A DNA stretch of 64,000 nt. Origin: Halorussus salilacus (GTDB lineage Archaea > Halobacteriota > Halobacteria > Halobacteriales > Haladaptataceae). Below the pieces are notes generated by a model. It was not told the origin of the DNA. It saw only the letters and a list, made by a program, of their open reading frames with translations, and made no database searches. Each line of letters opens with the position of its first letter. Positions within the stretch are counted from its first letter, which is position 1. The position numbers and the translations under genes are program-made. The DNA lies in contig NZ_CP099995.1 in assembly GCF_024138125.1 (NCBI RefSeq), positions 62,001-126,000 of the forward strand, given 5' to 3'. Positions 12,709 through 38,690 of this stretch are shown piece by piece.

Positions 12709-12850
12709 GAATCACTCCACCCGGTTCACGCGGCTTCGACCCCCTTACGATGGGGTATGCCTCCAGGATGATCGAGTGCGACGTTAACGTTTCCGACCAG
12801 CGGTGCTGGGAGGTGATCGGCGACTGTTCGTCAAGGAGGTCACCACCGTC

Positions 12851-13291
12851 ATGGAGAACTTCTCCAGGGCGATCGGAAACTGCACGAGATGCGGGAAACG
12901 ATTCGACGTGCCGATCGTCGATGGCGAACTGGCCGTCCTGTATCCCATCGTCAGAGGCGAACCGAACGGGTTGGACGAGGGTGCGACCACCAAGGTCGAG
13001 TTCCCGAATCCTACCGACTCCGAGATGTTGACGATGATATTCCTGTCGGTTACCCCACTTGATCCCAAAGAGACGACTGCCAAAGGATACGTCCCACCTG
13101 AGTCGGCCACAACCTGGCTGAGCGCGGGCGAGACGACGATCCAAACCTTCGATCTCTCTAGCGAGGTCGTCTACGATACCGACTACGTCGTACACCGGTT
13201 CGTCATCGGGAACCTCTGGCCGTACATGGGAGTTGGCATGTTGCGAGCAGGTAGCGAGCCCGGGCTCAAGCCCTCGCGCGTCCTCGGCTAA
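12851..13291 (+). CDS. Unknown small protein with a single CxxC
   Basis: A 146-residue frame. The ATG at 12851 is preceded by AAGGAGG about 10 nt upstream, a good ribosome binding site, which favours it over an earlier in-frame start. The N-terminus has CTRCGKRF, half of a zinc ribbon, followed by beta-strand-like segments (ELAVLYPIV, MIFLSVTPL, YDTDYVVHRFVIG). I do not recognise the family. A long frame on the other strand (12659-13477) overlaps it; the plus-strand frame is preferred because of the binding site and its residue make-up. It ends 270 bp before the sugar isomerase gene and could be the first gene of the small-molecule cluster. Confidence 0.5.
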   Translation: MENFSRAIGNCTRCGKRFDVPIVDGELAVLYPIVRGEPNGLDEGATTKVEFPNPTDSEMLTMIFLSVTPLDPKETTAKGYVPPESATTWLSAGETTIQTFDLSSEVVYDTDYVVHRFVIGNLWPYMGVGMLRAGSEPGLKPSRVLG

Positions 13292-16290: not shown

Positions 16291-17190
16291 ATGATTGATA
16301 ACAAGGTCGTCACCGCCCTTCTGGGAGACCCTGTCGAGCACAGCGTGTCACCAACGTTGTACGGTACCTTCGCCGAAGCCATTGGTATCGACGACTATCA
16401 ACATCTCAAGGTACGGGTTCAGAGCGATGTAGACGGTGATCTCGAAAAGGCGATTGAGGGATTGCGAGCCTTCGGTCTCGTCGGATGTAACATCACGCTC
16501 CCCTTTAAGCAGGACACCTTGGAACTAGTGGACGAATTGGATGAAACCGTCGATAAGATCGGGGCGGTAAACACGATCCAGAACGAGGATCATCGGCTCG
16601 TCGGTTACAACACTGACGGTGTCGGGGCGTTGAAGTCAATCGAGGAACGCTCCAGAAAGATCACTTCGAACGACAAGGTGGTCATCTTAGGCGCGGGTGG
16701 TGCAGCCCGCGCGGTTAGCTCGGAGGTGTACGAACGGACCACGGACCTAGTTCTCGTCAACCGAACGCTGGAACGTGCAGAACGGTTGGTGAACGACCTC
16801 GAGTCGTGGGGGGGGAACGGTGCAGAACCCCTGGAGTTGGACGATGAGAACCTACGAGCGGAACTGGTAAACGCAGACTTCGTCCTCAATTGTACGTCCG
16901 TAGGCATGCATCCGGATACGGATGCTACCGTGGTCCCTCCGAGGGTATTAGATCACGTCGACGAGCAGAGAGGCGGACTTGACAATATGATCTTCTGGGA
17001 TGCGATATTCAATCCACTGCAAACGATGTTCCTAGAGGAAGCTGAGAAGCGGAATGCGACGACAATCGATGGGTTGGGGATGATGATATATCAGGGTACG
17101 GAGGCTTTCGAACTCTGGACGGGCGAAACCGTCCCCGAGGAAGCTATCGTAGAGGCTCGAGACCGGATGGAGGAAGAACTACTCTCGTAG
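16291..17190 (+). CDS. aroE: Shikimate dehydrogenase family protein
   Basis: A 299-residue AroE-family enzyme. Substrate motif SVSPTLY (Ser18, Ser20), CNITLPFK with catalytic Lys73, Asn94, and catalytic Asp109 in YNTDG; nucleotide loop GAGGAAR (134-140). It reduces 3-dehydroshikimate to shikimate with NADPH, or acts on a related (amino)cyclitol acid. The TATA-like TTTTATTA about 30 nt upstream suggests a leaderless mRNA. A haloarchaeon normally has a chromosomal aroE with the aromatic pathway. This copy sits alone among small-molecule genes, so it may be a paralogue for a special metabolite. No other aro genes are nearby. Confidence 0.85.
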   Translation: MIDNKVVTALLGDPVEHSVSPTLYGTFAEAIGIDDYQHLKVRVQSDVDGDLEKAIEGLRAFGLVGCNITLPFKQDTLELVDELDETVDKIGAVNTIQNEDHRLVGYNTDGVGALKSIEERSRKITSNDKVVILGAGGAARAVSSEVYERTTDLVLVNRTLERAERLVNDLESWGGNGAEPLELDDENLRAELVNADFVLNCTSVGMHPDTDATVVPPRVLDHVDEQRGGLDNMIFWDAIFNPLQTMFLEEAEKRNATTIDGLGMMIYQGTEAFELWTGETVPEEAIVEARDRMEEELLS

Positions 17191-17528
17191 AGGAGAACCT
17201 CTTCGTCTCGAGGCGGGACTGACGGCCGGTGGAAGCCGCTACCCGCTGGTGTTTGGTCCTCACTGATGAGGGGGTAACTTTGCCTACTTTTCGTATCAGT
17301 AGGCAATGAATGTGGTCCGATGTGTTCGGCCTACTCTCCGGGTCGGTCATGCGTTCACAGCCGAGGACCCGGTTCATGGACGTTCCGCTCAGAACTCAAA
17401 AACATGAGTCGATGTCCGGATTCGGCCGGAAGAGAGTGTGTTGACAGATCCGGGACATCTGAGTCTCTCCGTTGAATGAGAAGTTTTTTACTCATGCCAT
17501 CTATTATAGCAAGTAAGATATTACAAAA

Positions 17529-18752
17529 ATGAAGCTCTATAGTGATTTAAAGACTCCTGACGATTGGGAACTTGAGGTCGTCGAGCGGAAGGGCATAGGG
17601 CATCCGGACACGCTCGCAGATGGATTGGCGGAGACTGTCTCTAATGAGTATGCAGCCTTCTGCGAGGAGAACTTCGATGCAGTACTTCACCACAACATCG
17701 ACAAGCTCTCCTTGATCGGTGGACTCGCCGAGGTGGACTTCGGTGAAGGGGATGAGATCGTCCCATCAAAAGTGATACTGAATGGCCGAATGAGCACTCG
17801 ATTCGGTGACGAAGAGATCGATATCGAGACCTTGATGCGAGACAGCGTCAAAAGGTATCTCAACGACATTCTTCCCAACTTGGACACTTCTCCAAAGATT
17901 GAGATACATACCAACGATTACTCCCACAATCCACACTGGTACAGACCCCGGGACCTCCAGGACGTTCCTGACGCTGAATCACCGCACGCCAACGACACGT
18001 CTACCTGTGTTAGCTATTGGCCGCCGACGCCAGTTGAAGAAGCAGTCCTCGGCATTGAAGCCTTCTTCTACGACGACGACTTGCATCCGCGCTTTGACTA
18101 CGTCGGTCAGGATATCAAGGTGATGGCCAACCGGAACGGCAGTTCGGTTGATTTCACAGTCGCAGTTCCCTTCATCACAGAAGAGACACCAGACCTCAAG
18201 TTTTACGAACGGCATATTGAGGACTTCGAGGAACGGATCGCTATGTATGCCGAAGAGATTATGAACGGCAAGTATGATGCCACTGTGACGATTAATCACT
18301 CCGGCCAGTGGGAGGACGAGTACTACCTCCTTGCGACGGGGTCGTGCATTGAGAGCGGAGAGGAAGGCGTGGTTGGGCGCGGAAACCAGGCCCATGGAAC
18401 GATCTCGATCCATCGGCCTTCCTCGATGGAAGCGCCCCACGGGAAGAATCCTGTCTACCACGTGGGCAAGGTGTACCAAATCATCAGCGATCACCTCTCA
18501 AGGACGATCGCTGGGACGTTCGACTGTCGGTGTACGGTAAACATGACGAGCAAGATCGGTGCGGACCTATATGATCCGGGCAACCTGACGGTCAGAACGG
18601 ATACCGCGATCGACGAGGGCAAACTGGAGGACGTGGTGTACCAGACGTTGCGGAGTAAAGACTGGACCGCGAAGATCGTCGACGAGGGAGCACTCATGCC
18701 GCTGAATCGGATCCGGGAGTTTAAGCAACGAAGCAACGTATCGCCGAACTAG
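17529..18752 (+). CDS. mat: Archaeal-type methionine adenosyltransferase (AdoMet synthetase)
   Basis: A 407-residue protein of the archaeal MAT family, which makes S-adenosylmethionine from methionine and ATP. Visible signatures: ERKGIGHPDTLADGLAE (20-35), HHNIDK, MANRNG, and GRGNQAHGTISIHRPSSMEA followed by GKNPVYHVGKVY. The full family length is present. The stretch after GRGN (QAHGTISIH) differs from the usual RVNGLI-type sequence as I remember it, which suggests a diverged extra copy rather than the housekeeping enzyme. Nearby genes encode a methyltransferase and a deaminase for SAM by-products, so it probably supplies SAM to the cluster. Confidence 0.9.
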   Translation: MKLYSDLKTPDDWELEVVERKGIGHPDTLADGLAETVSNEYAAFCEENFDAVLHHNIDKLSLIGGLAEVDFGEGDEIVPSKVILNGRMSTRFGDEEIDIETLMRDSVKRYLNDILPNLDTSPKIEIHTNDYSHNPHWYRPRDLQDVPDAESPHANDTSTCVSYWPPTPVEEAVLGIEAFFYDDDLHPRFDYVGQDIKVMANRNGSSVDFTVAVPFITEETPDLKFYERHIEDFEERIAMYAEEIMNGKYDATVTINHSGQWEDEYYLLATGSCIESGEEGVVGRGNQAHGTISIHRPSSMEAPHGKNPVYHVGKVYQIISDHLSRTIAGTFDCRCTVNMTSKIGADLYDPGNLTVRTDTAIDEGKLEDVVYQTLRSKDWTAKIVDEGALMPLNRIREFKQRSNVSPN

Positions 18753-19377
18753 AACTGGTTGTGGGCACCACGCGTACGTGACTGACCCAGGGACGATACG
18801 GGTGGGGTCCTTAGGTCCGCTCCACTGAACGTTCCGTACCTCAGCGTGTTCGATAACTGGTTTGGAGAGCGTTCTCGATACCTTGCGGGAACAACTCCGT
18901 TCCGAGGAACGAACGGCCAGCAGGGCGCCATATGAAGCCTGTTAGGAGGTCGTCCGGCTGGCTTTCGAATCTCGATACAATACCAAGTACCAGCTGTTCG
19001 GAGGTAGCTCCTAGACCACGATGGCAATGTGGAAGCGGGTGTTTGGGCCTCGTTTCGTTAGGTTCCAACCGCGAGTGCCCACCCGCGGCAAGCGAGCCGT
19101 AGGTTCCGGCTGACCAGAGGAGTAGTCCCAGTCGGGAGATGCGGCCGGAGAGGTATCGTGAGCCGACGAATGATAACGATGAAACGTATTATCTCAAAAG
19201 AGTATTATATCCTCATTTCCCACGTCCAGAATTCTCGTATATCACAATATAACGTCGTCTCATTACTAAACACTGTTTTATATACAGAAATAATTACTTT
19301 TATAACAAACTATTAATCGTTACTGAAATCGGTCGTGATGGGACACATGTAACCCAACCGTTTCGGAATCTGTGAGC
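18753..19377. other. Intergenic stretch without a recognisable gene
   Basis: About 625 bp between the MAT gene and the next insertion-sequence relic. Short frames on both strands look like shadows. The last 180 bp are strongly AT-rich. I see no RNA gene. Confidence 0.6.
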
Positions 19378-20118
19378 GGCACTGTCTAGTTTCCCTCTTC
19401 AATCGGTGTGCGTTCATCGAGGGCTTGGTGCGGTCGCTGGACATTATAGTAATGAACAAACGACGCAAGTCACTGGCGGACGCCCCGCCGACTGCCCACC
19501 CACGACGAATGGAAGCGGTCAATTCTCATCTTGAGAGTGTGAAACGACTTTTCAATCTGGTTTCGGTCGACATACTCAAGATGACCGCTCAACTCTAATC
19601 GGGAGAGGGCAGTCAGATAGCCTGCGCCATCAACTAGAAACACAGCCTCTGAACAATCGTGTTTCTGGGTGAGGCCGTGGAGGAACGCAGCTGCTGGATC
19701 GGTGCCTCGCCGACCAAACACGGCGACATCGAGCAGCACCTATGTGTCGAGGTCGATTGTAGCATACACCCAAGACCACTCACCGTGAATCCGGACAGCG
19801 GTCTCGTCGACCGCGACCCGCGTCGGCTGCGCCGACGGCGGGTCGCCGATGCTGTCAGCTAGCCGATGTATCCAACTCTAAACCGCTCCATGCGTCCGTT
19901 CGACGCCGAGGAGCCCAAGAATCGCTGCTGTTTCTCTGAGCGAACATCCGGCAGGGTGGAGCCGGACGGCGAACGCCCTGACGGGCGTCGCCGTCCGCTC
20001 CCGCTGCCAACATTCAAGAGTAGCCGTCTCTAACGTCTCTCTGAGCAGGTCTGCGACCTTCATTCCAACCAACCGCACGACCTGCTCATTTCTCAAACTG
20101 CGCTAACTAGACAGTGCC
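19378..20118 (-). mobile_element. Decayed IS6-type insertion sequence with terminal repeats and target repeat
   Basis: A 741-bp element bounded by GGCACTGTCTAGTT (19378) and AACTAGACAGTGCC (20105-20118), perfect 14-bp inverted repeats. Flanks CTGTGAGC and CTGTGAAC are an 8-bp target repeat with one mismatch, the size typical of IS6. The transposase runs from about 20096 to 19388 on the minus strand but has in-frame stops (TAG near 19880 and 19741, TGA near 19471). Readable pieces include TRVAVDETAVRI, AVFLVDGAG, RNQIEKSFHTLK and YYNVQRPHQALDERTP, which is a different subgroup from the element at 35812. It is inactive but structurally complete. Confidence 0.85.
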
Positions 20119-20149
20119 CTGTGAACTCTCCCATCATCGTCGGAATAGA

Positions 20150-20560
20150 TCTCCTTAGCTTGTGTGATGCAGGGCGCTAAGCCCCCTTCCTCAACGAGCG
20201 GCGACCGAAGGGGAGGCGCGAGTAGGGAGGGGATACAGCGTCCGTCATCGGTTTCACTTCCACTGGACGGCTTGGCCTTACTACCCTCGCGGTTCAATGG
20301 GGTAGTAAGACACTCACCACATCGCGTCCGTCGTTCAAACGCGACAAGAAGCGTGCGTCGGACGTGTGGCCCGAGTGTCCATCCGGTAGGAGTGGGACAC
20401 TCCAAACCGCCCGTCGAGGGAAATCGCCTGCGGAGTCTGGAACCGCTGTGGGACCTGTTCCTGCACGTTCCGACACAGAAACAGGAAGCCCCGACCTCAA
20501 CAAGCGAGGGCCGGGTAGGCCCGAGCGCGGTAGGTCGGGGTAGTTCACTAACGCCACCAG
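20150..20560 (+). mobile_element. Probable right-end relic of an IS1341/TnpB-type element
   Basis: There is no intact gene. Around 20340-20545 one frame ends in ...TETGSPDLNKRGPG, like the tail of haloarchaeal TnpB proteins, followed by a GC-rich foldable stretch ending in GGTCGGGGTAGTTCAC, which I recall as the right end of IS200/IS605-type elements in haloarchaea. The 20160-20270 part has another foldable GC-rich repeat. If correct, it would include a relic of the omega RNA region. Based on remembered patterns only. Confidence 0.4.
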
Positions 20561-20597
20561 CGTTTTTGAGAGGCCTCGGATCATCCGACCAAACTCG

Positions 20598-21120
20598 GTG
20601 CTCGTGACTCTCCACCACGCCCTAATCAAAGCCAGCTATGGGGCACCCGAGTGGAACGATCTGTTAAATGAATGCGCTCTGGCGATCGGTGCCGAGCCAA
20701 CGCCATTCCTGCTGTTCATCCATCCAGATACGGCGCCGCCATCCCTCGAGTCTGCCGAATGGACACTGAGCGTGGACGCCTGAAGTCATTACCTGGACGT
20801 CAGTCTCCATAACGTCTTGAAGCCGCTCGTCGATGTGAAAATACCACGCATCGACACTGACGACCTCCACGTAAAGATAGACGTCGACGAGGGGGAGCCG
20901 CCGTACCACGCGCTCTCATAGAGGAAGGAGAGGGGCTCAGGCTCTTGCTGTTCGAATATAGACCCATCGAACGGGAGACGATGACCTTCCGTGTGGAAAG
21001 CGAGGACACGCAAGAAGAATACGCATCCGAACTCCCGATGCTCCGTGTTCGAGCCTTCGACTGCCCGTACTTCTCCCAGAAGACCGAACCACAGGTCAAG
21101 GAGGCTAGGAACATCCCACC
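20598..21120 (+). pseudogene. Decayed paralogue of the 627-residue protein at 36807-38690
   Basis: Three pieces in different frames match the middle of the large unknown protein further right. VTLHHALIKASYG followed by PTPFLLFIHPDTAPP corresponds to VVLHHALIKAGYD and IPFLLFGRPEAVPP. Then a VDVKIPRIDTDDLHV piece matches VDLELPLIDPGDVHV. The end, about 20980-21120, reads DCPYFSQKTEPQVKEARN against DRPFFSKKTERQLENARN. The N-terminal dyad region and the zinc ribbon are missing. The relic lies just before the deaminase gene, so an intact copy may once have belonged to the small-molecule cluster. Confidence 0.8.
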
Positions 21121-21139
21121 GTTCACCCAATTGGCGGCT

Positions 21140-22486
21140 TCAGGCCAGTTCCCTCCCGTCTGCAATGCGTTGGCTGGATTTTCGCGCTGCGTCGTATACT
21201 TCGTCTTCGTCGAACGGCACCAGTTCGCGCTCGGAGACGAGGATGTCTCCCCCGACCAGCACAGTTCGAACGGCCTCACGGTTCGCCGAGTACACGATGT
21301 TCGAGACCGGGTCGTTGACTGGCACGAGCGATGACACCTCGCCATCGAGGATGGCGATATCGGCACGGAACCCAGGTTCGATTCGCCCGGCCTCGACGTC
21401 AAGAATGTCCGCACCGACGCGTGTCGCCATGTCGAGTATAGTCCGACTTTCCACGTCGACGGTACCAAGTCTGCAACGAGAGAGTAGCGTTGCGAGTTTC
21501 ATCTCTTCGAGCATGTCGAGACTGTTGTTCGAAGCTGGCCCGTCGGTCGCCAGCGAGACCGAGACCCCGGCTTCTCTGAGTTCTGAAACCGGACAAAACC
21601 CGGAGCGAAGCTTCATGTTCGCTCCTGGACAGTGGGCGACACCGACGTCTTCCTCCGCCAAGATTTCGATCTCCGACGGGTCCAAGTGGACCGCGTGTGC
21701 AACGTATGCGTTCGCGTCCCAGAACCCGACTCTGTCGAGGTGTTCGACTGGACGAATACCGTGTCGTTCGATCGTGTCTAGAGCGTCTTCTTTAGATTCG
21801 CTAAGGTGTATGTGGATGGGGCAGTCCAAAGTATTCGCAACCTCGGCGGCCCGCTTGAGGAACCAGTCGTCACAGGTGTACGTTGCGTGAGGTGTTATCA
21901 TCGGCGTAACGCGTGGGGTGAATGCATCCCGAACGTGCGTGACGAACCGCTTGGCTTGGCCGAATTGCGCCTCCGACTCCTCTCGCGTTTTCTCCTCGTT
22001 GCTCATCCCGTAGCCGACTCTCGCCCTAATCCCAGATTCGGCGACTGCACGGAGAATCGCCTCTTCTTCGAAATACATCTCTCCGAAGGCGGTAGTCCCC
22101 GACAGTAGCATTTCTGCGATCGCTAGCCGTGCGCCGTTGTACACGTCCTCTGCCGTCATTCGCTCCTCTACCGGCTGAATCTCTTTCCTGAACCACCTCC
22201 GGACCGGGAATCCGTCTGCGAGACCACGAAGCAGGGTCATCGGTGTGTGTGTGTGTACGTTCACTAGTCCTGGAATGACGAAACAACCGGACGCGTCGAT
22301 TTCCTCCCGAGCACTCTCGATCCGACCGACGCGTTCGATTCGATTCCCTCGAATGCCGACATCTGTCTCGACGAACCGTGACCCGACGTATACCGTGCCT
22401 CCGCGAATTGCGACGTCCAGCCGATCTTCGTCATGTTCGCACTCACTCCTCTGGGTAAGGGTTCTTCCGGACTCGGGTTCTCCCAC
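21140..22486 (-). CDS. Amidohydrolase: SAH/MTA/5'-deoxyadenosine deaminase-like
   Basis: A 448-residue metal-dependent amidohydrolase. Motifs: VHTHTPM (metal ligands His78 and His80), HIHLSE (His227), VAHAVHLD (His264/267) and ATDGPASNNSLDM (Asp315), the pattern of the SAH/MTA deaminase family (MtaD, DadD). Such enzymes deaminate adenosine-type by-products of SAM reactions to inosyl forms. The first 20 residues are a poorly conserved extension. Close to the MAT and methyltransferase genes, it is probably used to clear S-adenosylhomocysteine, methylthioadenosine or 5'-deoxyadenosine. A chlorohydrolase-type or guanine-deaminase-type role is less likely because of the NNSLDM motif. Confidence 0.85.
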   Translation of the reverse strand: MGEPESGRTLTQRSECEHDEDRLDVAIRGGTVYVGSRFVETDVGIRGNRIERVGRIESAREEIDASGCFVIPGLVNVHTHTPMTLLRGLADGFPVRRWFRKEIQPVEERMTAEDVYNGARLAIAEMLLSGTTAFGEMYFEEEAILRAVAESGIRARVGYGMSNEEKTREESEAQFGQAKRFVTHVRDAFTPRVTPMITPHATYTCDDWFLKRAAEVANTLDCPIHIHLSESKEDALDTIERHGIRPVEHLDRVGFWDANAYVAHAVHLDPSEIEILAEEDVGVAHCPGANMKLRSGFCPVSELREAGVSVSLATDGPASNNSLDMLEEMKLATLLSRCRLGTVDVESRTILDMATRVGADILDVEAGRIEPGFRADIAILDGEVSSLVPVNDPVSNIVYSANREAVRTVLVGGDILVSERELVPFDEDEVYDAARKSSQRIADGRELA

Positions 22487-22913
22487 ATTTTTGTATCAGG
22501 AACTGGATTTTAAAACGTTCCGGCTTCATGATCTGGGTCCTGCAAAGATCGTCACCAGAAGCCCCCTTGGGGTTTCATCAAGAATCATCTACAAGAGTCA
22601 CCCGCAGACCAGTCTACCTCCATTCGGTCGTCCAGCAGGAACCAAATCGAGCCCTCTGACTCCGCTCGAACGAGCGATTGCTTCCTGGAGTGACTGTGAT
22701 CGTATCGACTCGCGAGGACAATGATCCCCGTCGGTTTGCCCGTCGCCGACCGAAACGTGTCGATGGTACCGGCTACGCGCGTTGGCGTCGATGAGGTCAC
22801 CCTTGGACGAATCATACCTGCTCCAACACGGACTCTGGTCCGACTCGAGTATCTGCCGAGAAACTGGTGCTGCACCGACGAGTCAAGGCCGAGACGATGA
22901 GTGGGTCGGCTGA
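22487..22913. other. Intergenic stretch, possible relic frame
   Basis: A 427-bp gap. A minus-strand frame of 96 codons (22585-22875) has a less shadow-like composition but no recognisable motif or clear promoter. I do not call it a gene. Confidence 0.4.
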
Positions 22914-24059
22914 TCAGTCGATCGCCTCTTTTAAACGAGTCTTCTGTTCTTCGAGTTCAATCTCGACCTCTGCTTTGCTTTTCCCTTCGATGTTCTCGAA
23001 GTACGTCAAGACCCGTAGCAGATAGAACGGCGTGATGACCTCAGCCAACCTGTTCGCCTCTTCTGTGGAGACACTACGGCCATCGATGTACCTGAGGAAC
23101 TGTCCCAGAATGTCGCACCACATTTCGCGGGTTAGGCACTGCTGTTGAATCTTGTTCTTGACAAACCCCGTAGATATGGGCTCGCAGTCGGTCGCGTCTT
23201 CCCCCGACAATTCTGTCAGGAGGCCAACGGCGGTGTCCAGCCGCTCCTCCACCGCTTCTTGTGAGGGCTTATCGACGTAATCAGCTATCGCGCTCGAATT
23301 GTTTATACCTTCGATACTCCGGGTGGTACCAGTATGGTCTCCTCTGCTGAGAAGGAAGAACGTGGTGGCGGCTATCTCTCTAAACATAGGGACCATCTTC
23401 CCAAAACTGGGTTTGTGGATCTTCTTTCCGAGCGAGGATTCTTTCACGTTCAGATCGTTCTCAAGGGCAGTGAGAGAGAAGAAATAGTCGATGCCGTATC
23501 TGTATACTGCCGGCGTCTTTGGGGCCGACAGGAATGTCTTGCAGGCTTCGTAATCCATAGAGAAGTCACCTGCGATGGGCTGTCTTAGATCGCAGTCATA
23601 GATCGCAGAGACGAGTGGATAGCAGAAGTGGTTGGTAGTATTACCTTCGTACCTGTTGCGCTCGTAGTTGGCTGTCACGAAATTCACGTCCGTCTCAAGG
23701 ACGGGCGTGGCCAACTTCTCTATCCACGCTGGCTGCACTGACGTTATGTCGGCATCGATGGTCAGTATGCACACGTTGTCGAAGTCCTCGGCTCTCTCGT
23801 CGGCGTACTCGAGCAGCGAGATGAGGCTCCGGCCTTTCCCGATCTCGGGACCGGGGCGAACATACTCCTTCGGGAAGGTCGTCTCCGTGGCCAAAAAGTG
23901 TTCTCGAGTGTCATCCTCGCTCTGATCGAGGTTAACGATGACGGCTTCCGACTCCGGGAAGTACGTCTCGAGCCCCTCGTCGGCGGTCTGTGTAACGTGG
24001 GAGATGTTGTCTTCTTCATTGAACGAGGGGGTCCCAACGATGATTAAATTCTCACTCAT
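22914..24059 (-). CDS. GT-A fold glycosyltransferase
   Basis: A 381-residue glycosyltransferase. The N-terminus has the family-2-type IIVGTPSFNEEDN. The nucleotide-sugar metal site is ILTIDADI (Asp102 and Asp104), and IAGDFSMDYE (about 162-171) matches the acceptor and GDF motif of enzymes such as mannosyl- and glucosylglycerate synthases (GT78/GT81-like). No membrane segment is visible, so it is cytosolic. It transfers a sugar from a nucleotide donor to an unknown, probably small, acceptor. The start overlaps the end of the methyltransferase gene by 8 nt, so the two products likely act on one molecule. Confidence 0.82.
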   Translation of the reverse strand: MSENLIIVGTPSFNEEDNISHVTQTADEGLETYFPESEAVIVNLDQSEDDTREHFLATETTFPKEYVRPGPEIGKGRSLISLLEYADERAEDFDNVCILTIDADITSVQPAWIEKLATPVLETDVNFVTANYERNRYEGNTTNHFCYPLVSAIYDCDLRQPIAGDFSMDYEACKTFLSAPKTPAVYRYGIDYFFSLTALENDLNVKESSLGKKIHKPSFGKMVPMFREIAATTFFLLSRGDHTGTTRSIEGINNSSAIADYVDKPSQEAVEERLDTAVGLLTELSGEDATDCEPISTGFVKNKIQQQCLTREMWCDILGQFLRYIDGRSVSTEEANRLAEVITPFYLLRVLTYFENIEGKSKAEVEIELEEQKTRLKEAID

Positions 24060-24699
24060 AGGTCGACCTGTCAGGTTTCCGTGCCAGGAAGCAGAAGTTG
24101 TCGCCTCGTTTCGTGAGCTCCATCGGTTCGAACTCGGAGAAGACCTCCATCACTTCGTCTCTTCGGAAGTTGTGATGGGGGATGCCTTCTTCGGGACCTT
24201 CCAGCGGAACGACGGTTCCTGGTTCGACCTTTTCGAACTCTTCACCGTCTTCTTTGAGGTCGACCAGCTTCTGATACGTGGGCAGCTGGACGTAGACCAA
24301 TCCCGACGGCTTCAACACTCGGTACATCTCGGCTACGGCGTGCTCGATCGTTTCCAGGTCGGCGTGGTTGATCGACACCGTCGCGATGGTCGCATCGAAG
24401 TACTCGTCTTCGTAGACGAACTCTTCCGCGAAGTTGGCTTGTCGGACGTCCGCATCGAAATCGGCACTTGCCAGATTCTCCGTCAAGGCGTCGACAGCAG
24501 ATTCCGAGAAGTCGAACCCATGGAGATCGAAGCCATGTCGAGCCAGATACATTAGATGGCGGCCGGCCCCGCAGCCAACGTCGAGGACACGTTCTTTTCC
24601 TTCGTCTTCGAGGATCGACGCGAGTTTGACTATGTCTTCGTCAACGTCTCCGTCTACCCTCTCGTACCAGTCGTCCCAACTCCCTTTCCTTTGCTCCAT
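24052..24699 (-). CDS. Class I SAM-dependent methyltransferase
   Basis: A 215-residue protein with motif I VLDVGCGAGRH (38-48), an acidic residue after the second strand (LHGFDFSES), and motif IV-like FDATIATVSINH. The product of the fold is methyl transfer from SAM; the acceptor is unknown. It is cotranscribed with the glycosyltransferase (8-nt overlap), preceded by an AT-rich promoter (TATATGGTATAA at about 24727-24738). Together with the MAT and deaminase genes it completes a local SAM cycle. Confidence 0.86.
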   Translation of the reverse strand: MEQRKGSWDDWYERVDGDVDEDIVKLASILEDEGKERVLDVGCGAGRHLMYLARHGFDLHGFDFSESAVDALTENLASADFDADVRQANFAEEFVYEDEYFDATIATVSINHADLETIEHAVAEMYRVLKPSGLVYVQLPTYQKLVDLKEDGEEFEKVEPGTVVPLEGPEEGIPHHNFRRDEVMEVFSEFEPMELTKRGDNFCFLARKPDRSTYE

Positions 24700-25274: not shown

Positions 25275-25898
25275 CTACAGATAGGGACGAATGGCCGAAG
25301 AGAGTTCTTTCCAGACGACATCGTGCGGCCGTTCGGCATCGATAGAGATGACGTCCAGTTGGTCGGAATAGTGTTCGATCACCGGGACCGTCTTCTCTTT
25401 ATACACCTCGATTCGATGCCGGATTATTTCTTCGTCGTCGTCGCTACGTTCGACAAGAGGTGCCGCGCAGGAATCACACTGTCCAGTTTGCGCCGGGGGT
25501 TTGTACTCCTCGTGGTAGGATTCATTACAAGAACTGCAGATCTGTCGATTCTTGAGTCGATTTAACGTCGTTTCGTCGCTCACGTGCATGTAGACCATCA
25601 CCGATAGGTCGGTTATCGAGGAAAGATATGATACTTGGCTCATCGTCCGTGGGTAGCCGTCGAGGATGAATCTGCTCTCGTCTCGGAGAATCTGTTCGAC
25701 GACTTCGTTGATCACTTCATCGGGGACGTAGTCGCCAGCTTCGATGTAGTCTGCCGGAGTTCCATAGGGTGTCTCCATCTCTCTGTTCTCTCGAAGAATG
25801 GTCCCGGTTTCGACGTGTCTCACCCCTTCTTGCTTCTCGAGCTTTCTGCACTGGACTCCTTTCCCAGCACCCAACGGCCCGAAAATCAGACCCTTCAT
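25275..25898 (-). CDS. Adenylate kinase-like nucleotide kinase with zinc LID
   Basis: A 207-residue nucleoside monophosphate kinase. P-loop GPLGAGKG (7-14), NMP-site ETGTIL, DGYPRT with the conserved Arg, and a LID with two CxxC pairs (CSSC...CDSC) that binds zinc as in Gram-positive and many archaeal enzymes. It phosphorylates AMP, or a related nucleotide, with ATP. A housekeeping adk usually lies with ribosomal or secY genes, so this copy is likely dedicated to the cluster, for example recycling AMP from adenylylation reactions. A TATATATATT box about 30 nt upstream of the ATG implies a leaderless mRNA. It is divergent from the HPr-kinase-like gene. Confidence 0.85.
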   Translation of the reverse strand: MKGLIFGPLGAGKGVQCRKLEKQEGVRHVETGTILRENREMETPYGTPADYIEAGDYVPDEVINEVVEQILRDESRFILDGYPRTMSQVSYLSSITDLSVMVYMHVSDETTLNRLKNRQICSSCNESYHEEYKPPAQTGQCDSCAAPLVERSDDDEEIIRHRIEVYKEKTVPVIEHYSDQLDVISIDAERPHDVVWKELSSAIRPYL

Positions 25899-26181
25899 CT
25901 ATGTTCTCTTCGTGAGTATTATCACATATATATTTTGGGTACAAAAACGATGAAAAGCAATTCCTTTGGGGGAGTTCTAAATGTCAGGTGTGATGTGCAG
26001 AGCCCAAACGTCAAAATCATCCAGGAAGATTGGTATGCGTCCCTCGATCCCACTGCCATTTCGACGCCTGTCACGGTCTCCACATCGCTATGGAGGGCGA
26101 GACACCGCTACTCCGATCATCACGGATCAATACAGGGAAGCATAAGAACTAAATTTGATAACTAACAGCATAAAAGTAGTA

Positions 26182-27081
26182 ATGCAGTTCGAGTCACATG
26201 GGTCAGTCGTTCAGTTGGATGGTGTCGAATCGGTAGCTTCTGAGGTCGAGGCACGGATGCGAAGGGGGATTCCTGGAGCGAAACAGGTCACCGGCAAGAA
26301 GGCGGACTACACGGTGGAGGTCGAATTGGGAGAGCCGGAGCTCGTCGTCGGCGAGGAACGCGCACTACTTGGTATCACCTCCGAAGAGTATATCACATCC
26401 GACGTGATGGCGCTCGCGTCGCGAGTGTTTGAACGCCTGTACGTCGAGAACGACTGCATATCCATGCACTCGGCGACGGTCGAGATCGATGGGTCGGCAG
26501 TGTTGCTCATCGGGCCAGGCACTGCCGGCAAGACGACGACCGCGTTCAAGATGTGCGAGAAATACGACGCAGGCTACATGTCGGGCGACCGGACTCTGAT
26601 CGATGCCGAACGTGCGATCGCCGGCGAGCAGACCGTTGTTTGTAAGAAGGGATCGCTGTGCTTGGAGTTCGACGCCTTCGATGTCGAACTCCCCTCAGGT
26701 ACCATCGACGAGGAGGGGCTCTGGCAAGAGGGGATCGAGTGTACGCACGCCGAACTCGGCCTCTCCCGGGTCGACGACGAGTTGGATATCGAGGCCATCT
26801 ACTCGGTGATGCGCCTTCCACTGGACGACCGACTTCGAGTCGTGGACTTCTCGCACATCGAAGCTCTCTGGGACGTGTCCAAACAGGCGGTGTACTACTC
26901 TCACTACTACCAACCGCTACTCTATGGGGCTCGGAGCGTCACCCCCGTCGTCGAGGGTCGAACGCAGCAGTCGAAGCGGGTGAGCCTGATCGCAGATCTC
27001 GTTGAGACGGTCGACTGCTACGGCATCACCGGGGCGATGGACGAGATGGCGGAGTTCATCTACCGACATCACTTTGAGTAG
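26182..27081 (+). CDS. HPr kinase-like P-loop kinase
   Basis: A 299-residue protein from the ATG at 26182; an upstream start at 26155 is possible but lies in the AT-rich promoter. It has SMHSATVEIDG (about 94-104) and a P-loop GPGTAGKTT (111-119) followed by GDRTLI, the layout of the C-terminal kinase domain of HPr kinase/phosphorylase. The HPr-kinase family signature is not visible in full. Haloarchaea may have PTS, but this type is also found as stand-alone kinases in peptide and small-molecule clusters. The substrate is unknown, probably a small molecule or a carrier protein. It starts a run of plus-strand genes including the SelD-like and NMNAT-like genes. Confidence 0.75.
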   Translation: MQFESHGSVVQLDGVESVASEVEARMRRGIPGAKQVTGKKADYTVEVELGEPELVVGEERALLGITSEEYITSDVMALASRVFERLYVENDCISMHSATVEIDGSAVLLIGPGTAGKTTTAFKMCEKYDAGYMSGDRTLIDAERAIAGEQTVVCKKGSLCLEFDAFDVELPSGTIDEEGLWQEGIECTHAELGLSRVDDELDIEAIYSVMRLPLDDRLRVVDFSHIEALWDVSKQAVYYSHYYQPLLYGARSVTPVVEGRTQQSKRVSLIADLVETVDCYGITGAMDEMAEFIYRHHFE

Positions 27082-27324
27082 CCCGATTTTAGATGTAAGG
27101 ACCCGTTTCTTATGTCGATGCGGGCGAACTCGCATGGGTCTTTCTCGGTGCAGCGTGCTTGTGATCTACGGCGGTAGCAGCAGCGACCAGCGACGTCGGA
27201 TCGAAGTCGCTGGCGTCTCATGGGTGTCTTTGCCTGTGGTCCAGCCCAGTCCTGACTTTCACCTCATAGAACATAACCATAGATAGAAATAAACGTATGG
27301 GGTAAATTATATCCATTGTGCCCC

Positions 27325-28662
27325 ATGGGAAAAGATACGAACTCTAACTCTCCTGGTGGAAATCGTGGAATAGAGGCTGTTAGATCCATCTGCGGTTGTG
27401 GCGGCAAGACGTCACTTGAGGAGGTCGTCTACCCAGCGCGGCGGAAACTTGGGGAGCGGCTTCGGCAAGTGGGTGTCGAGCTTGGTGACAATGGCGACGT
27501 CGCTATTCTGCCGTTGACCGACGACTGTCGACGCGCGGTCGAGACGATCGAGGCCGACTCCATTGCGTCCCATGATCCGCTTGAGATAGACGGTCCCGTG
27601 TGGACGTTGACCGCTACTCTCGCTGATACGGACCTTGGCGGGAGTGAGCAGCAGTTCGTTGAGACGATCGGTGAGATCTACGAGTCATTAGGGAAGATCG
27701 GGTCGGTGACGATCGGAAAGGGGCACTCGGTCCAACTTAACAAGGCGAGCAAAACGGTGCAGTGGTTCGAGCACTTCGAGCCGGTGGGTCCCAAGCGGGA
27801 GGGACACATCGTCGCCAATATCGATATCATTCACGCGTTTCCGGATCTCTCTGTCCGCGAACAGGCGGCCATCGCATCCTATCACACGCTCAATGATTGT
27901 TACTCGGCAGGCGGTCACGACGGTCGCACGGTCAGACCGATTGTCGTCGTGACGACCGGGAATGACGTCACCCCTGAGGAGGTGGACGAGTGGTACCGGA
28001 GTGTCCTCCCCGACGACATCTCATTGCTTCCGGGCGTCGTTCTCGAACACGATGGGTACGGTTGGTTGTTCGGTGCGACAGCGACGGCGCGTATACCTCA
28101 CGACCCTCCCACTTTCGAACGGGAGATCACGTCAGGGGATCAGGTGTTGCTCCACCGATCGCTGGGGGGACTCGCGATGTACACCGTCGGAATCGAGAGC
28201 TCGGATGCCGAACTGAAGGATGCTGCACGTCGTGAACTGATTGCCGACCATCACCCCGTCGCCGAAGTCATCGCTCAGTACTGTCCGGGGCCCGATGAGT
28301 CGTTCGACCCGTCGAAACACATCAAGTACTCCTCGGATGTCTCGGGTCCGGGGATTCGAGATCTGGAGAAACCGTCGGAGAAACGCGATCTAGCGTTCAA
28401 CATCACGGATATCCCGATATTGAGTGAAACCATCGCTGACCACGTCCACGCGCACTGGACCGTTCCGGACGTCACGGTCGAGACGAATGGACCGATCGCT
28501 GTCGTTGCCAGGCCGACCGTGATTCGAGATATCGAAGCCGATCTGCTGGCGGTATCGCAGGCGGACCCGGTTGTGGTTGGCGAGTACTCGAACTCGGACC
28601 GCGGGACGACGTTGGTCACCCAGGATGTCGAGATTGAGCGTTACCTAGAGAGCCTGTCGTAA
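27325..28662 (+). CDS. SelD-like protein (PurM/AIR synthase superfamily)
   Basis: A 445-residue protein starting at ATG 27325. The N-terminus has ICGCGGKTSL, matching the SelD loop with catalytic Cys and Lys (Cys25 and Lys28 here; the second SelD cysteine is Gly). IVANIDIIHAFPDLS with TLNDCYSAGG follows the SelD TVDFFTP...NALSDVYAMGG pattern, GDQVLLHRSLGG follows the GD-(I/V)LTKPLG pattern, and YSSDVSGPGI follows TDVTGFG. SelD makes selenophosphate from ATP and selenide. It is about 100 residues longer than SelD and some motifs are changed, so it may phosphorylate another substrate. It is one base upstream of the NMNAT-like gene, so the two are coupled. Confidence 0.75.
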   Translation: MGKDTNSNSPGGNRGIEAVRSICGCGGKTSLEEVVYPARRKLGERLRQVGVELGDNGDVAILPLTDDCRRAVETIEADSIASHDPLEIDGPVWTLTATLADTDLGGSEQQFVETIGEIYESLGKIGSVTIGKGHSVQLNKASKTVQWFEHFEPVGPKREGHIVANIDIIHAFPDLSVREQAAIASYHTLNDCYSAGGHDGRTVRPIVVVTTGNDVTPEEVDEWYRSVLPDDISLLPGVVLEHDGYGWLFGATATARIPHDPPTFEREITSGDQVLLHRSLGGLAMYTVGIESSDAELKDAARRELIADHHPVAEVIAQYCPGPDESFDPSKHIKYSSDVSGPGIRDLEKPSEKRDLAFNITDIPILSETIADHVHAHWTVPDVTVETNGPIAVVARPTVIRDIEADLLAVSQADPVVVGEYSNSDRGTTLVTQDVEIERYLESLS

Positions 28663-28663
28663 T

Positions 28664-29212
28664 ATGATCGGACACATTCATGGCCGGTTCCAGCCGTTCC
28701 ACGACGGCCACCTTGAGTACGTGAAGTGGGCTGCCGATACTGCAGATCGATTGATCGTGGGGATTACAAACAGCGACTCGTCTCACACGGAGAAAGAACG
28801 AGCTGATTCAGAAAGACACCGGCCGGAGGCCAACCCATTTCGATACTTCGAGCGCTTCCGGATGGTTCGGGACGCCATCAACGATTCATCGGTCGACGTC
28901 CCAGTCGAGATCCATCCCTTCCCGATCAACAGGCCAGAACTGTGGAAGTACTACGCACCCGAATCGTGTGTCCATTTCGTATACGTCTTGGAAGAGTGGC
29001 ACGAGGTGAAGGTACGACGACTCCGGGAGCGGGATCGTCAAGTGTACACCAAGCGAAAACAACGAGATATCAGTGCCTCACAGATCCGAGAGGCCATGAT
29101 CGATGACGAGGATTGGCGGACTCACGTGCCATCGGCCGTCGTCAACCGTATCGAGGCCATTGACGGGCAGGATCGCGTGACGGAGCTCGCAGCTGGCGAA
29201 CGGCCGGACTGA
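28664..29212 (+). CDS. NMN adenylyltransferase-like nucleotidyltransferase
   Basis: A 182-residue protein of the archaeal NadM type. The HxGH-containing GRFQPFHDGHLEYV (7-20) and ISASQIREAM (136-145) bind ATP phosphates and catalyse adenylyl transfer with release of pyrophosphate. The housekeeping reaction makes NAD from NMN. The middle (EIHPFPINRPELWKYY) fits the family. Situated directly behind the SelD-like gene, it may adenylylate the product of that enzyme rather than NMN. The class II pyrophosphatase-like gene downstream could remove the pyrophosphate formed. Confidence 0.82.
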   Translation: MIGHIHGRFQPFHDGHLEYVKWAADTADRLIVGITNSDSSHTEKERADSERHRPEANPFRYFERFRMVRDAINDSSVDVPVEIHPFPINRPELWKYYAPESCVHFVYVLEEWHEVKVRRLRERDRQVYTKRKQRDISASQIREAMIDDEDWRTHVPSAVVNRIEAIDGQDRVTELAAGERPD

Positions 29213-29448: not shown

Positions 29449-30420
29449 ATGAAAAACCTGAAACCCGTCGTGTTAGATGGATCTCCTATGAACCCTCGGA
29501 TTCTGGTCACCGGGTACGAAAGCCCTGACTTGGACGCCGTGGCGTGTCTGCTTGCCTACTCGGAACTCCTACAGTACGAAGGGAAGGATGCCGTCGGTGC
29601 GACGTTCGGCACGCCACATCGGGAAGCGCAATTCGTGCTCGATAGGCTAGATTTGACCGTTCCAGCTACGGAAGAGCTGTCGGATTACGACGAAGTACGT
29701 CTGGTCGACGCATCCGACCGTCGAGGGATCTCGAACGAGATAGATCCGGACGCCGTCACGGAGGTCATCGACCACAGAGAAGCCCACAACCCAGAGGCAT
29801 TTCCGAATGCCACGCTGCAAGTCGAACTCGTCGGTGCAGCGGCCACGCTTGTCGCCGAGCGGTACCGGGAAGCGGGGGCTCCACTGACCGATAAGCTCGC
29901 CAATGTGTTGTACGCTGCGATCGTCTCCAATACACTCGATCTTCGCGCGAACGTGACGACTGACAGAGACGAAGCGGTGGTGGCGTGGTTGCAACGGTCG
30001 GCCGACGTCTCGCAGGAGATTACGGATCAGATGTTCAAGCATAAGTCGAGAGTCGGCGACGAGTCGCTCCGGTCCATTTTCGATAGTGACTTCGCTAGCA
30101 TATCTGTATCGGGAACCGATATCGGGATCGTCCAACTCGAGATTCTCGCGGTGGACGATTTTGTCGACAGTCACCAAGTGGAGATAGTCGAAACCCTCAA
30201 TTCGATGTGCAATGCGCGGGGTCTCGACCACATCCTCCTGATTGGTGTCGACCTGAAGGGTCGATTCGACGTGTTGGTCACCGATAGCAGCCTATTACAA
30301 CGCTCGCTGACTGAAGCACTTGACACGTCGTTTAGTGGCGATGTGGCCGTCACGAACGAACCGATCCTCAGGAAGGAACTAATCCCTAGACTGAGTCGAG
30401 AGATGGCGACACCAGAGTAG
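29449..30420 (+). CDS. DHH-family phosphoesterase, class II pyrophosphatase-like
   Basis: A 323-residue protein; ATG 29488 (reading MNPRILVTGYE) is an equally possible start and better matches the family N-terminus. Metal motifs: ESPDLDA (Asp27 and Asp29 counted from 29449), LVDASD (Asp87) and VIDHRE (Asp108-His109-Arg110, where family members have DHH or DHN). The C-terminal domain corresponds to DHHA2. The Mn-dependent inorganic pyrophosphatase PpaC is the closest pattern, but the changed first and third motifs leave room for another phosphoesterase activity. It is the last gene of the plus-strand series and may drive the adenylyltransferase step. Confidence 0.78.
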   Translation: MKNLKPVVLDGSPMNPRILVTGYESPDLDAVACLLAYSELLQYEGKDAVGATFGTPHREAQFVLDRLDLTVPATEELSDYDEVRLVDASDRRGISNEIDPDAVTEVIDHREAHNPEAFPNATLQVELVGAAATLVAERYREAGAPLTDKLANVLYAAIVSNTLDLRANVTTDRDEAVVAWLQRSADVSQEITDQMFKHKSRVGDESLRSIFDSDFASISVSGTDIGIVQLEILAVDDFVDSHQVEIVETLNSMCNARGLDHILLIGVDLKGRFDVLVTDSSLLQRSLTEALDTSFSGDVAVTNEPILRKELIPRLSREMATPE

Positions 30421-36806: not shown

Positions 36807-38690
36807 ATGAGGGTCCTTGGATCCGATAATCCGCCGGAGTACAGGCAACTTGCATCGGAAATCGCCGGAGAGAGCGAATCGGTTTATGAGATAACTAATC
36901 CAAAACCGAGCGAAACAAATCTCGTCGTTTCTCCTCCGGATCGGTTGGTTGATTTACCGTTGACTGAGATGTATGAAAGCCTTGCCGCGGAACTTGAAGG
37001 CAGCCCTCGTATAGGAATAATCACAGGACGCACTGTTTCGGAAGCACGGTCGCTGTACTTCGATAGGACACCAGCAGGTGATGAAGATGCCTTAGTGGTT
37101 CGGGGTATTGGAGACGAGCCTGAACTCGGATACGAGGACTCCTTGATACTTACGGGGAGTGATGTTACGGCGAATGGTATCAAAGACATCACGTCCGATC
37201 GCTTTAATTCCTTTTCAATACTCGCGAATGGAAAATATATTCACCAGTTTCTGTCTGGAGATTACCTTTGTGGATTCCCAAGCGATGAACAGGAGTTCGA
37301 ATTTACAGAGCCACAGCCGAATTGCGTGGGCAATGGAGAAATGGACTGCCCAAAGAATGGTAATATCATCAAAGCGGATACCATAGAGGCAGATCACATT
37401 TTTTTGAACGCATGCAATCCTATTCTCTCAGAAACGGCCATATCCCCAGTGAATGTTGGACTGAGCCTTCTGAGTAACGCGACTGCCATGATCGCAAGTC
37501 CGCGAGTTATCCGAGTGGAGTCGTTGCTTGTGGTGCTCCATCACGCGCTGATCAAAGCAGGATACGATGCTGGGGAACGGACGTATCTCTTGAACAGATG
37601 TGCTGAAGGAATCGGTGTTGAACGAATTCCCTTCTTACTCTTCGGCCGACCAGAAGCAGTACCGCCAACGAACGAGTCGGGCGATTGGTCCCTGAACATC
37701 GAGCATCGACCCGGTCGACTAGAAATGCGACTTGAGAACATCTCGGCTCCAATCGTTGATCTAGAGCTTCCTCTTATTGATCCAGGCGATGTACACGTAA
37801 CGATGGACGACGGTGAGAAAGATCTGCCATACCACACCATCTTCAAAGAGGGAGACCATTTCAGACTGCTTTTGTTTGACTGGGGGTATCTCGAAATGGA
37901 GTCGCTGAACATTCAGATTAAGACGGATAGAGTCTCTGACGAATTCGCCTCCGAACTCGAGGCTCTCCGTAGCCCCGACCGCCCGTTCTTTTCTAAGAAG
38001 ACTGAACGTCAGTTGGAAAACGCCAGAAACCTTATCGGAGGTAGTTCGAAATACCGGCGGAGAGCGGCATTCAATACGGATGCCCGCACCGAACTGCGAG
38101 AGCGATATGAGCGCGCATCTGATGAAATTGGTCGCGCTATGGAATCGTTCATCGACGATATGCTAGCTAATCCTCCAAGGCGACTCGAAGCGACGTATCT
38201 CACCGATTGTACGACCGACGATATCGAACACCAGTACGGTGAGTGTCCGTACTGTGGCCGAGCAGTTACACGAAGGACATACCGGGACGTGCTTGGGGTC
38301 ATCGATCGGAACGTGATCGATTGTGTGGAGTGTGCGTACATAGCCGACACTCCATATTCCTTCATGGCCGTATTACTACACGGTACTACTCAAATGGAAG
38401 CGGACAGTACTCCGGAATGGGAACTCCAGTTTCAAAACCCATACGACGAGACAGTTGCCATATCATACGGTATAACTACCTCAGCTGACACGGTCGATCC
38501 CGAATCCGCGTACGATCCATGCCGCGGAAGGGTGACGGTAGAAGCCGGAGATCTCGTTCGGATTCCGATCCAGATAGATGCGACACAATTTGACAAAGAC
38601 TCTCGTGATGGTGATTATCCAGTTCACGCCTATGTAATTGATGAGAAAATGGAAGTTTCAGTCGCAATGAGGTACGCTTGGGTTCGGTGA
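36807..38690 (+). CDS. Unknown 627-residue protein with possible His/Cys dyad and zinc ribbon
   Basis: I do not recognise a named family. Residues 136-200 read SILANGKYIHQFLSGDYLCG and later HIFLNACNP: a His (146) before a turn, and a Cys (203) at the end of a hydrophobic strand, the arrangement of caspase-like or CHAT peptidases; this is only a hypothesis. Residues 240-420 include a LVVLHHALIKAGY helix and two beta-type blocks, and 480-509 hold CPYC and CVEC, a likely zinc ribbon. The C-terminus is beta-rich. An eroded paralogue lies at about 20600-21120. The ATG follows an AT-rich promoter closely, so the mRNA is probably leaderless. No membrane segment or signal peptide is visible. Confidence 0.72.
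   Translation: MRVLGSDNPPEYRQLASEIAGESESVYEITNPKPSETNLVVSPPDRLVDLPLTEMYESLAAELEGSPRIGIITGRTVSEARSLYFDRTPAGDEDALVVRGIGDEPELGYEDSLILTGSDVTANGIKDITSDRFNSFSILANGKYIHQFLSGDYLCGFPSDEQEFEFTEPQPNCVGNGEMDCPKNGNIIKADTIEADHIFLNACNPILSETAISPVNVGLSLLSNATAMIASPRVIRVESLLVVLHHALIKAGYDAGERTYLLNRCAEGIGVERIPFLLFGRPEAVPPTNESGDWSLNIEHRPGRLEMRLENISAPIVDLELPLIDPGDVHVTMDDGEKDLPYHTIFKEGDHFRLLLFDWGYLEMESLNIQIKTDRVSDEFASELEALRSPDRPFFSKKTERQLENARNLIGGSSKYRRRAAFNTDARTELRERYERASDEIGRAMESFIDDMLANPPRRLEATYLTDCTTDDIEHQYGECPYCGRAVTRRTYRDVLGVIDRNVIDCVECAYIADTPYSFMAVLLHGTTQMEADSTPEWELQFQNPYDETVAISYGITTSADTVDPESAYDPCRGRVTVEAGDLVRIPIQIDATQFDKDSRDGDYPVHAYVIDEKMEVSVAMRYAWVR

Follow-up and report, generated by a model that had tools for sequence, protein, structure and literature searches.

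The window (the whole stretch of DNA analysed, 64,000 nucleotides) is part of a 158-kb contig, a haloarchaeal plasmid of Halorussus salilacus. It encodes a SelD-like protein and, one base further on (junction TAA-T-ATG), an NMNAT-like nucleotidyltransferase, as an earlier note on this DNA had described. The two genes and the features around them are as follows:

22914-24059, minus strand: GT2-type glycosyltransferase, best match glucosyl-3-phosphoglycerate synthase (E = 1.6e-8)
25275-25898, minus strand: extra adenylate kinase (Adk) paralogue, 1.4 kb upstream of the SelD-like gene, 56% identical to L019 15831-16451 of genome G019
26155-27081, plus strand: HprK-like P-loop kinase upstream of the SelD-like gene, with weak HprK-related matches
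27316/27325-28662, plus strand: SelD-like ORF of 445-448 aa, a TTG start at 27316 lying upstream of the ATG at 27325
27397-27408, plus strand: catalytic Cys25-Gly-Gly-Lys28 of the SelD-like protein, from alignment with SelD
From 28336, plus strand: D338-V-S-G segment of the SelD-like protein, aligning with the SelD 'TDVTG' segment
Within 27316-28662, plus strand: conserved Asp58, Asp167, Asp191 and Asp338, and a central insertion with GKGHS
28664-29212, plus strand: NMNAT-like nucleotidyltransferase ORF, 182 aa (CTP_transf_like, E = 2.5e-14)
29449-30420, plus strand: DHH/DHHA2 protein resembling Mn-dependent inorganic pyrophosphatase (NF003877, E = 1.8e-47)
36807-38690, plus strand: 627-aa protein with a C-terminal CxxC zinc-ribbon-like region, 25.7% identical over 622 aa (E = 3.8e-47) to its G019 homologue
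L019 16587-18548 and L112 6791-8740, outside the window: homologues in the 627-653-aa protein family

Not all of these genes belong together. The earlier note had seen in the glycosyltransferase an echo of selenosugar pathways, a comparison that fell away: the gene lies on the opposite strand, no SenB model is among its matches, and every related locus compared lacks such a glycosyltransferase, so we rejected it as a member of the unit. The HprK-like kinase gene likewise has no counterpart at the related loci compared, and its membership is therefore doubtful. Separately, AroE-like, MetK-like, SAH/MTA-deaminase-like, GT2 and methyltransferase genes form a run at 16291-24699 that could be a SAM-dependent biosynthetic cluster; this run is not conserved together with the SelD-like/NMNAT-like pair.

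Profile searches placed the SelD-like protein outside SelD proper. Its sole NCBIfam match was NF038049 (E = 8.2e-51, model positions 14-454 of 465), at 172.9 bits and thus under the 250-bit cut-off of that model, and neither SelD (TIGR00476, cut-off 125 bits) nor ThiL, PurM or HypE profiles matched at E <= 1. NF038049 denotes a 'SelD-related putative sulfur metabolism protein' described in Sulfolobales and Thermoproteales, with thiophosphate as its proposed product (Li et al. 2014, PMC4210487). Alignment with SelD bore out the earlier note in its claim that CGGK and DVSG are kept: C25-G-G-K28 is the SelD Cys-x-x-Lys motif, invariant across the SelD-like family, and within the superfamily the catalytic Cys is reported to be confined to SelD and its SelD-like relatives (Li et al. 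2014, PMC4210487). In the same sequence alignment D58, D167, D191 and D338 occupy the SelD Asp positions for metal/ATP binding (D167 matched by eye across the insertion), the Asp58 position being Glu in the G019 protein. At the position of the essential Asn of SelD (Asn87 in E. coli), the proteins of the window, G019, a Halobacteriales metagenome-assembled genome (MAG) and Halorientalis have His, and that of Halobaculum has Asn. The extra length remarked on earlier comes from roughly 90 residues inserted in the middle of the protein, an insertion that has an invariant GK(G/A)H motif and is common to NF038049-type proteins.

The predicted structure (pLDDT 79, pTM 0.83) retrieved only SelD/SEPHS entries at ranks 1-10 of a Foldseek search against the PDB, followed by HypE, ThiL and AIR synthetase at a modest margin (E = 2e-16 vs ~3e-13). 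In the tree, two NF038049-type proteins form the sister group (100/99) of the haloarchaeal SelD-like proteins (support 99/99), and SelD and the other PurM-type proteins branch elsewhere. Predicted fold, tree and profiles, together with the alignment, thus all favour SelD over a PurM/ThiL affiliation, which we rejected: the window protein is SelD-like, outside SelD by profile, and not PurM/ThiL. NF038049-type proteins are also present in two MAGs, one from Omnitrophota (L038 1857-3260) and one from the phylum to which the window belongs (L003); in 2014 the family was stated to be confined to Crenarchaeota (Li et al., PMC4210487).

The NMNAT-like protein has the predicted fold of archaeal NMNAT and keeps the nucleotide-binding motifs of the superfamily (GRFQPFHDGH and IS..IR in the alignment). 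It scores only 86 bits against TIGR01527, below the cut-off of 181.2, whereas a canonical NMNAT at 258-266 bits is present in each of the seven genomes searched. Each genome checked already has, in its canonical enzyme, a means of NAD synthesis. Where canonical enzymes have the S(G/N)NPLV pocket motif, nearly every operonic NMNAT-like protein in the alignment has (D/E)xWxxxK or a variant close to it (SDWEHDK in Rhodococcus), and following the SH motif these proteins have in common an insertion with a conserved Arg. They form a clade separate from canonical NMNAT (support 100/99), and the change in the pocket may have functional meaning.

The SelD-like and NMNAT-like genes (the latter at E < 1e-50) occur in an identical set of seven among 392 genomes of the order. 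The next NMNAT-like matches, at ~1e-19, are NMNAT-type, and the three that were read all carry canonical motifs. Five of the seven genomes belong to one genus, so that the set represents about three independent lineages rather than seven. A scan of genome contigs with a single protein returned no match; a profile scan returned five loci. The pair is adjacent at every locus read (G019, six Halobaculum plasmids, two further Halobaculum genomes, Halorientalis marina and the Halobacteriales MAG), mostly with a 4-base stop/start overlap. The genes are under purifying selection: dN/dS ranges from 0.06 to 0.44, and synonymous changes exceed non-synonymous changes in all Halobaculum comparisons. We are highly confident that the two genes form a functional unit, and the coupling proposed in the earlier note is upheld by the shared genome set, by two types of haloarchaeal cluster and by a Rhodococcus counterpart with a true SelD. 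An ordinary second NMNAT for NAD salvage, by chance beside a degenerate SelD-like gene, would fit the fold and the conserved nucleotide-binding motifs. It does not fit the strict co-occurrence and adjacency in both archaeal cluster types and in Rhodococcus, the canonical NMNAT elsewhere in each checked genome, the loss of S(G/N)NPLV or the purifying selection, and it is strongly disfavoured.

In the first cluster type (type A, the window and G019) the pair is accompanied by the extra adenylate kinase and the 627/653-aa protein. G019 carries these as four consecutive genes on the same strand, 653 aa - Adk - SelD-like - NMNAT-like, with Adk directly upstream of the SelD-like gene. A housekeeping Adk was found in all eight genomes searched, and a full-length extra Adk only in the window genome (G000) and G019, within these neighbourhoods. 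The type A adenylate kinase could recycle AMP from a SelD-type reaction, which we offer only as a suggestion. The 627-aa protein has just one other plasmid match, and Pfam, NCBIfam and PDB searches with the 627-653-aa family gave no match above noise. The window also contains a second, partial copy of it (20544-21115); judged by eye, a further ORF (12803-13291) resembles another of its C-terminal fragments.

In the second cluster type (type B, Halobaculum plasmids and Halorientalis) the order is acyl-CoA dehydrogenase (ACAD) - ApgM-like - SelD-like - NMNAT-like, a tight operon in which gene ends overlap or touch. The ApgM-like protein, of the phosphoglycerate-mutase family, retains in alignment the Ser, Asp and His that are the serine and metal-ligand residues of iPGM, and it is the only ApgM in type B genomes. 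No ApgM was found in the window genome or G019, so no acceptor step is evident in these lineages. SirA-like and Prx-like genes are absent among the annotated neighbours of the six Halobaculum plasmid loci, and a SufS-family cysteine desulfurase is encoded some 9 kb from one Halobaculum locus. The strand opposite the Halobaculum operon carries, close by, a separate 2-oxoacid dehydrogenase set (E1 alpha, E1 beta, lipoyl, E2; L028 18238-21382, with equivalents in L029, L032, L033 and L035), which is missing near the operon in strain CBA1158 and H. limi.

A plasmid search with the ApgM-like and NMNAT-like proteins recovered the same partners in Bacteria: five Rhodococcus plasmids encode ACAD - SelD - NMNAT-like - ApgM-like in one overlapping run. 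Four of these copies are nearly identical and count as about one event. The SelD of this operon is canonical (372 bits against the TIGR00476 cut-off of 125), so that the partners common to both domains stand with a canonical SelD in Bacteria and with a SelD-like protein in Archaea. That a canonical SelD fills the same place in the operon is the strongest argument tying the archaeal protein to SelD-type chemistry, which we judge from the sequence comparisons it likely performs.

The same NMNAT-like clade also adjoins a PPDK-like (PPDK_N-type) protein, with no SelD, on four further plasmids:

L078 8983-13346 (Treponema saccharophilum pTS2): NMNAT-like and PPDK_N-type proteins, also a cysteine desulfurase and a viperin-family radical SAM protein
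L077 8989-11499, L079 2436-5737 and L081 5801-9137: NMNAT-like and PPDK_N-type proteins

Because of this second context, the substrate of the NMNAT-like protein need not be a chalcogenophosphate; a theme common to both contexts may be that a 'dikinase' produces a phospho-compound and nucleotidyl transfer comes next. On one of these four plasmids, Rhodococcus pRJH2, a DHH pyrophosphatase-like protein is encoded two genes after a related NMNAT-like gene. At the NMNAT-like loci of Rhodococcus opacus and pRJH2, the upstream genes were considered as SelD-like candidates and proved not to be such, one being BTAD regulator-like.

The recurring pair points to an undescribed pathway in which a selenium- or sulfur-phosphate would be activated with a nucleotide. 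Our main reading, to which we give a probability of roughly 50%, is that the two genes would constitute a dedicated two-step unit that makes, and then nucleotidylates, selenophosphate or thiophosphate. By homology, the SelD-like protein would act on hydrogen selenide or hydrogen sulfide with ATP, by means of Cys25/Lys28 and Mg bound to its Asp residues, and yield selenophosphate or thiophosphate along with AMP and Pi. The NMNAT-like protein would then move a nucleotidyl group from ATP (or CTP) onto this product, releasing PPi, and the DHH pyrophosphatase-like protein of the window could pull the transfer by removing PPi. By analogy, we put at even odds that the NMNAT-like protein nucleotidylates the product of its SelD-like neighbour, and the selenophosphate- or thiophosphate-type intermediate on which the earlier note had it act is plausible. 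In Halobaculum, Halorientalis and Rhodococcus only, the ApgM-like protein with its conserved serine would, like PhpG acting on CMP-phosphonoformate, hand the activated chalcogenophosphoryl group on to an acceptor; by this analogy, transfer of the activated group is probably the role of the ApgM-like protein where it is present. The ACAD-family flavoprotein would act on the product of this third step, in place of which the window lineage would have the extra adenylate kinase and the 627-aa protein.

Relatives in the PurM superfamily phosphorylate organic substrates, and the SelD-like protein might do likewise (with a thiol or an enol, for example), the NMNAT-like protein adenylylating the product to a dinucleotide-type cofactor in the manner of CoaD/NMNAT, with no free chalcogenophosphate. 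The large insertion and the Asn-to-His change in the SelD-like protein would suit such a substrate, as would the NMNAT/PPAT fold, which normally acts on organic phosphates, and the pairing of related NMNAT-like proteins with PPDK-like proteins. Against it stand the canonical SelD in the same operon place in Rhodococcus and the retention of Cys-x-x-Lys, given that superfamily members other than SelD and SelD-like proteins are reported to lack the catalytic Cys (Li et al., PMC4210487), and we consider this alternative rather unlikely.

Similarly doubtful is a role for selenium only, which overlaps with our main reading but assigns the Se atom another fate: selenophosphate from the SelD-like protein would be the Se donor for a Se-containing small molecule, with the nucleotide as carrier. 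This would be one more SelD-dependent trait, next to Sec, selenouridine, Se-cofactor and selenoneine. The canonical SelD of the Rhodococcus version speaks for it, as does the existence of orphan SelD genes that are known and unexplained. However, no SelD over the cut-off was found in the seven haloarchaeal genomes searched, and the nearest named relatives of the SelD-like protein are proposed to act on sulfur (Li et al., PMC4210487). YqeB over the cut-off was also absent from those seven genomes and from Halorientalis, on which ground we rejected service of a Se-cofactor trait. The absence of YqeB and of SelD over the cut-off served here as a proxy for SelA, SelB and YbbB.

The match of the ApgM-like protein to the PhpG model (NF038358, E = 2e-49) could instead suggest a phosphonate or phosphinate pathway, with the NMNAT-like protein nucleotidylating a phosphonate as PhpF does; PF01467 contains both PhpF and Fom1. 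The operon proteins score 163.7-185.6 bits against this model, below its 545-bit cut-off. PEP mutase over the cut-off was found in none of eight genomes, with no match at all in the window genome and G019, and SelD genes are not known to take part in such pathways, which makes this explanation very improbable.

If our main reading is true, dedicated activation of thiophosphate or selenophosphate would be new biochemistry; hardly any natural small molecules with a P-S bond are known, and a 2019 review lists two. We further propose, tentatively, a pathway in Archaea and Bacteria in which free thiophosphate or selenophosphate is made, coupled to a nucleotide (a natural ADP-beta-S- or ADP-beta-Se-like intermediate) and then attached to a metabolite, as a P-S or P-Se group, by an enzyme of the phosphoglycerate-mutase family. 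Such a pathway would provide a biological route to P-S/P-Se small molecules and explain some of the orphan SelD genes. SelD has been the marker of every selenium-use trait known so far, and orphan SelD genes without a known trait are an open question in published surveys. The conserved operon of SelD or SelD-like protein, nucleotidyltransferase, ApgM-like protein and ACAD offers a concrete, testable hypothesis for such genes and may explain some of them. Our search, which covered open-access papers, found no published description of this operon.

Compared with known systems, the window protein resembles SelD-related NF038049 proteins in full-length similarity, Cys-x-x-Lys and the same insertion, and belongs to a sister clade (100/99). 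It scores below the cut-off of that family, however, and the thermophile genes adjoin SirA-like, Prx-like and sulfur genes, with no adenylyltransferase described (PMC4210487). With SelD (TIGR00476) it shares the catalytic Cys/Lys, the Asp ligands and the predicted fold, but has His at the Asn87 equivalent, the ~90-aa insertion and no match to the SelD model. The NMNAT-like protein shares fold and ATP-site motifs with archaeal NMNAT (TIGR01527), from which it is set apart by its separate clade, its replaced pocket motif and its insertion with a conserved Arg. Selenoneine biosynthesis (SenABC) uses SelD and makes a small molecule, whereas the window is without a SenB-type glycosyltransferase and its nearby GT2 gene is not conserved. 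In phosphinothricin biosynthesis, PhpF makes CMP-phosphonoformate, from which PhpG is named by NCBIfam as transferring the phosphonoformyl group; there too a PF01467 nucleotidyltransferase and an ApgM-family transferase handle a small phosphate analogue, PhpF being likened to the NMNAT-like protein by family and description. Unlike that system, the operon described here contains a SelD gene, and no PEP mutase over the cut-off was found in the eight genomes searched. The known kind to which the locus is closest is SelD-dependent metabolism, and a categorically new reading of it is possible.
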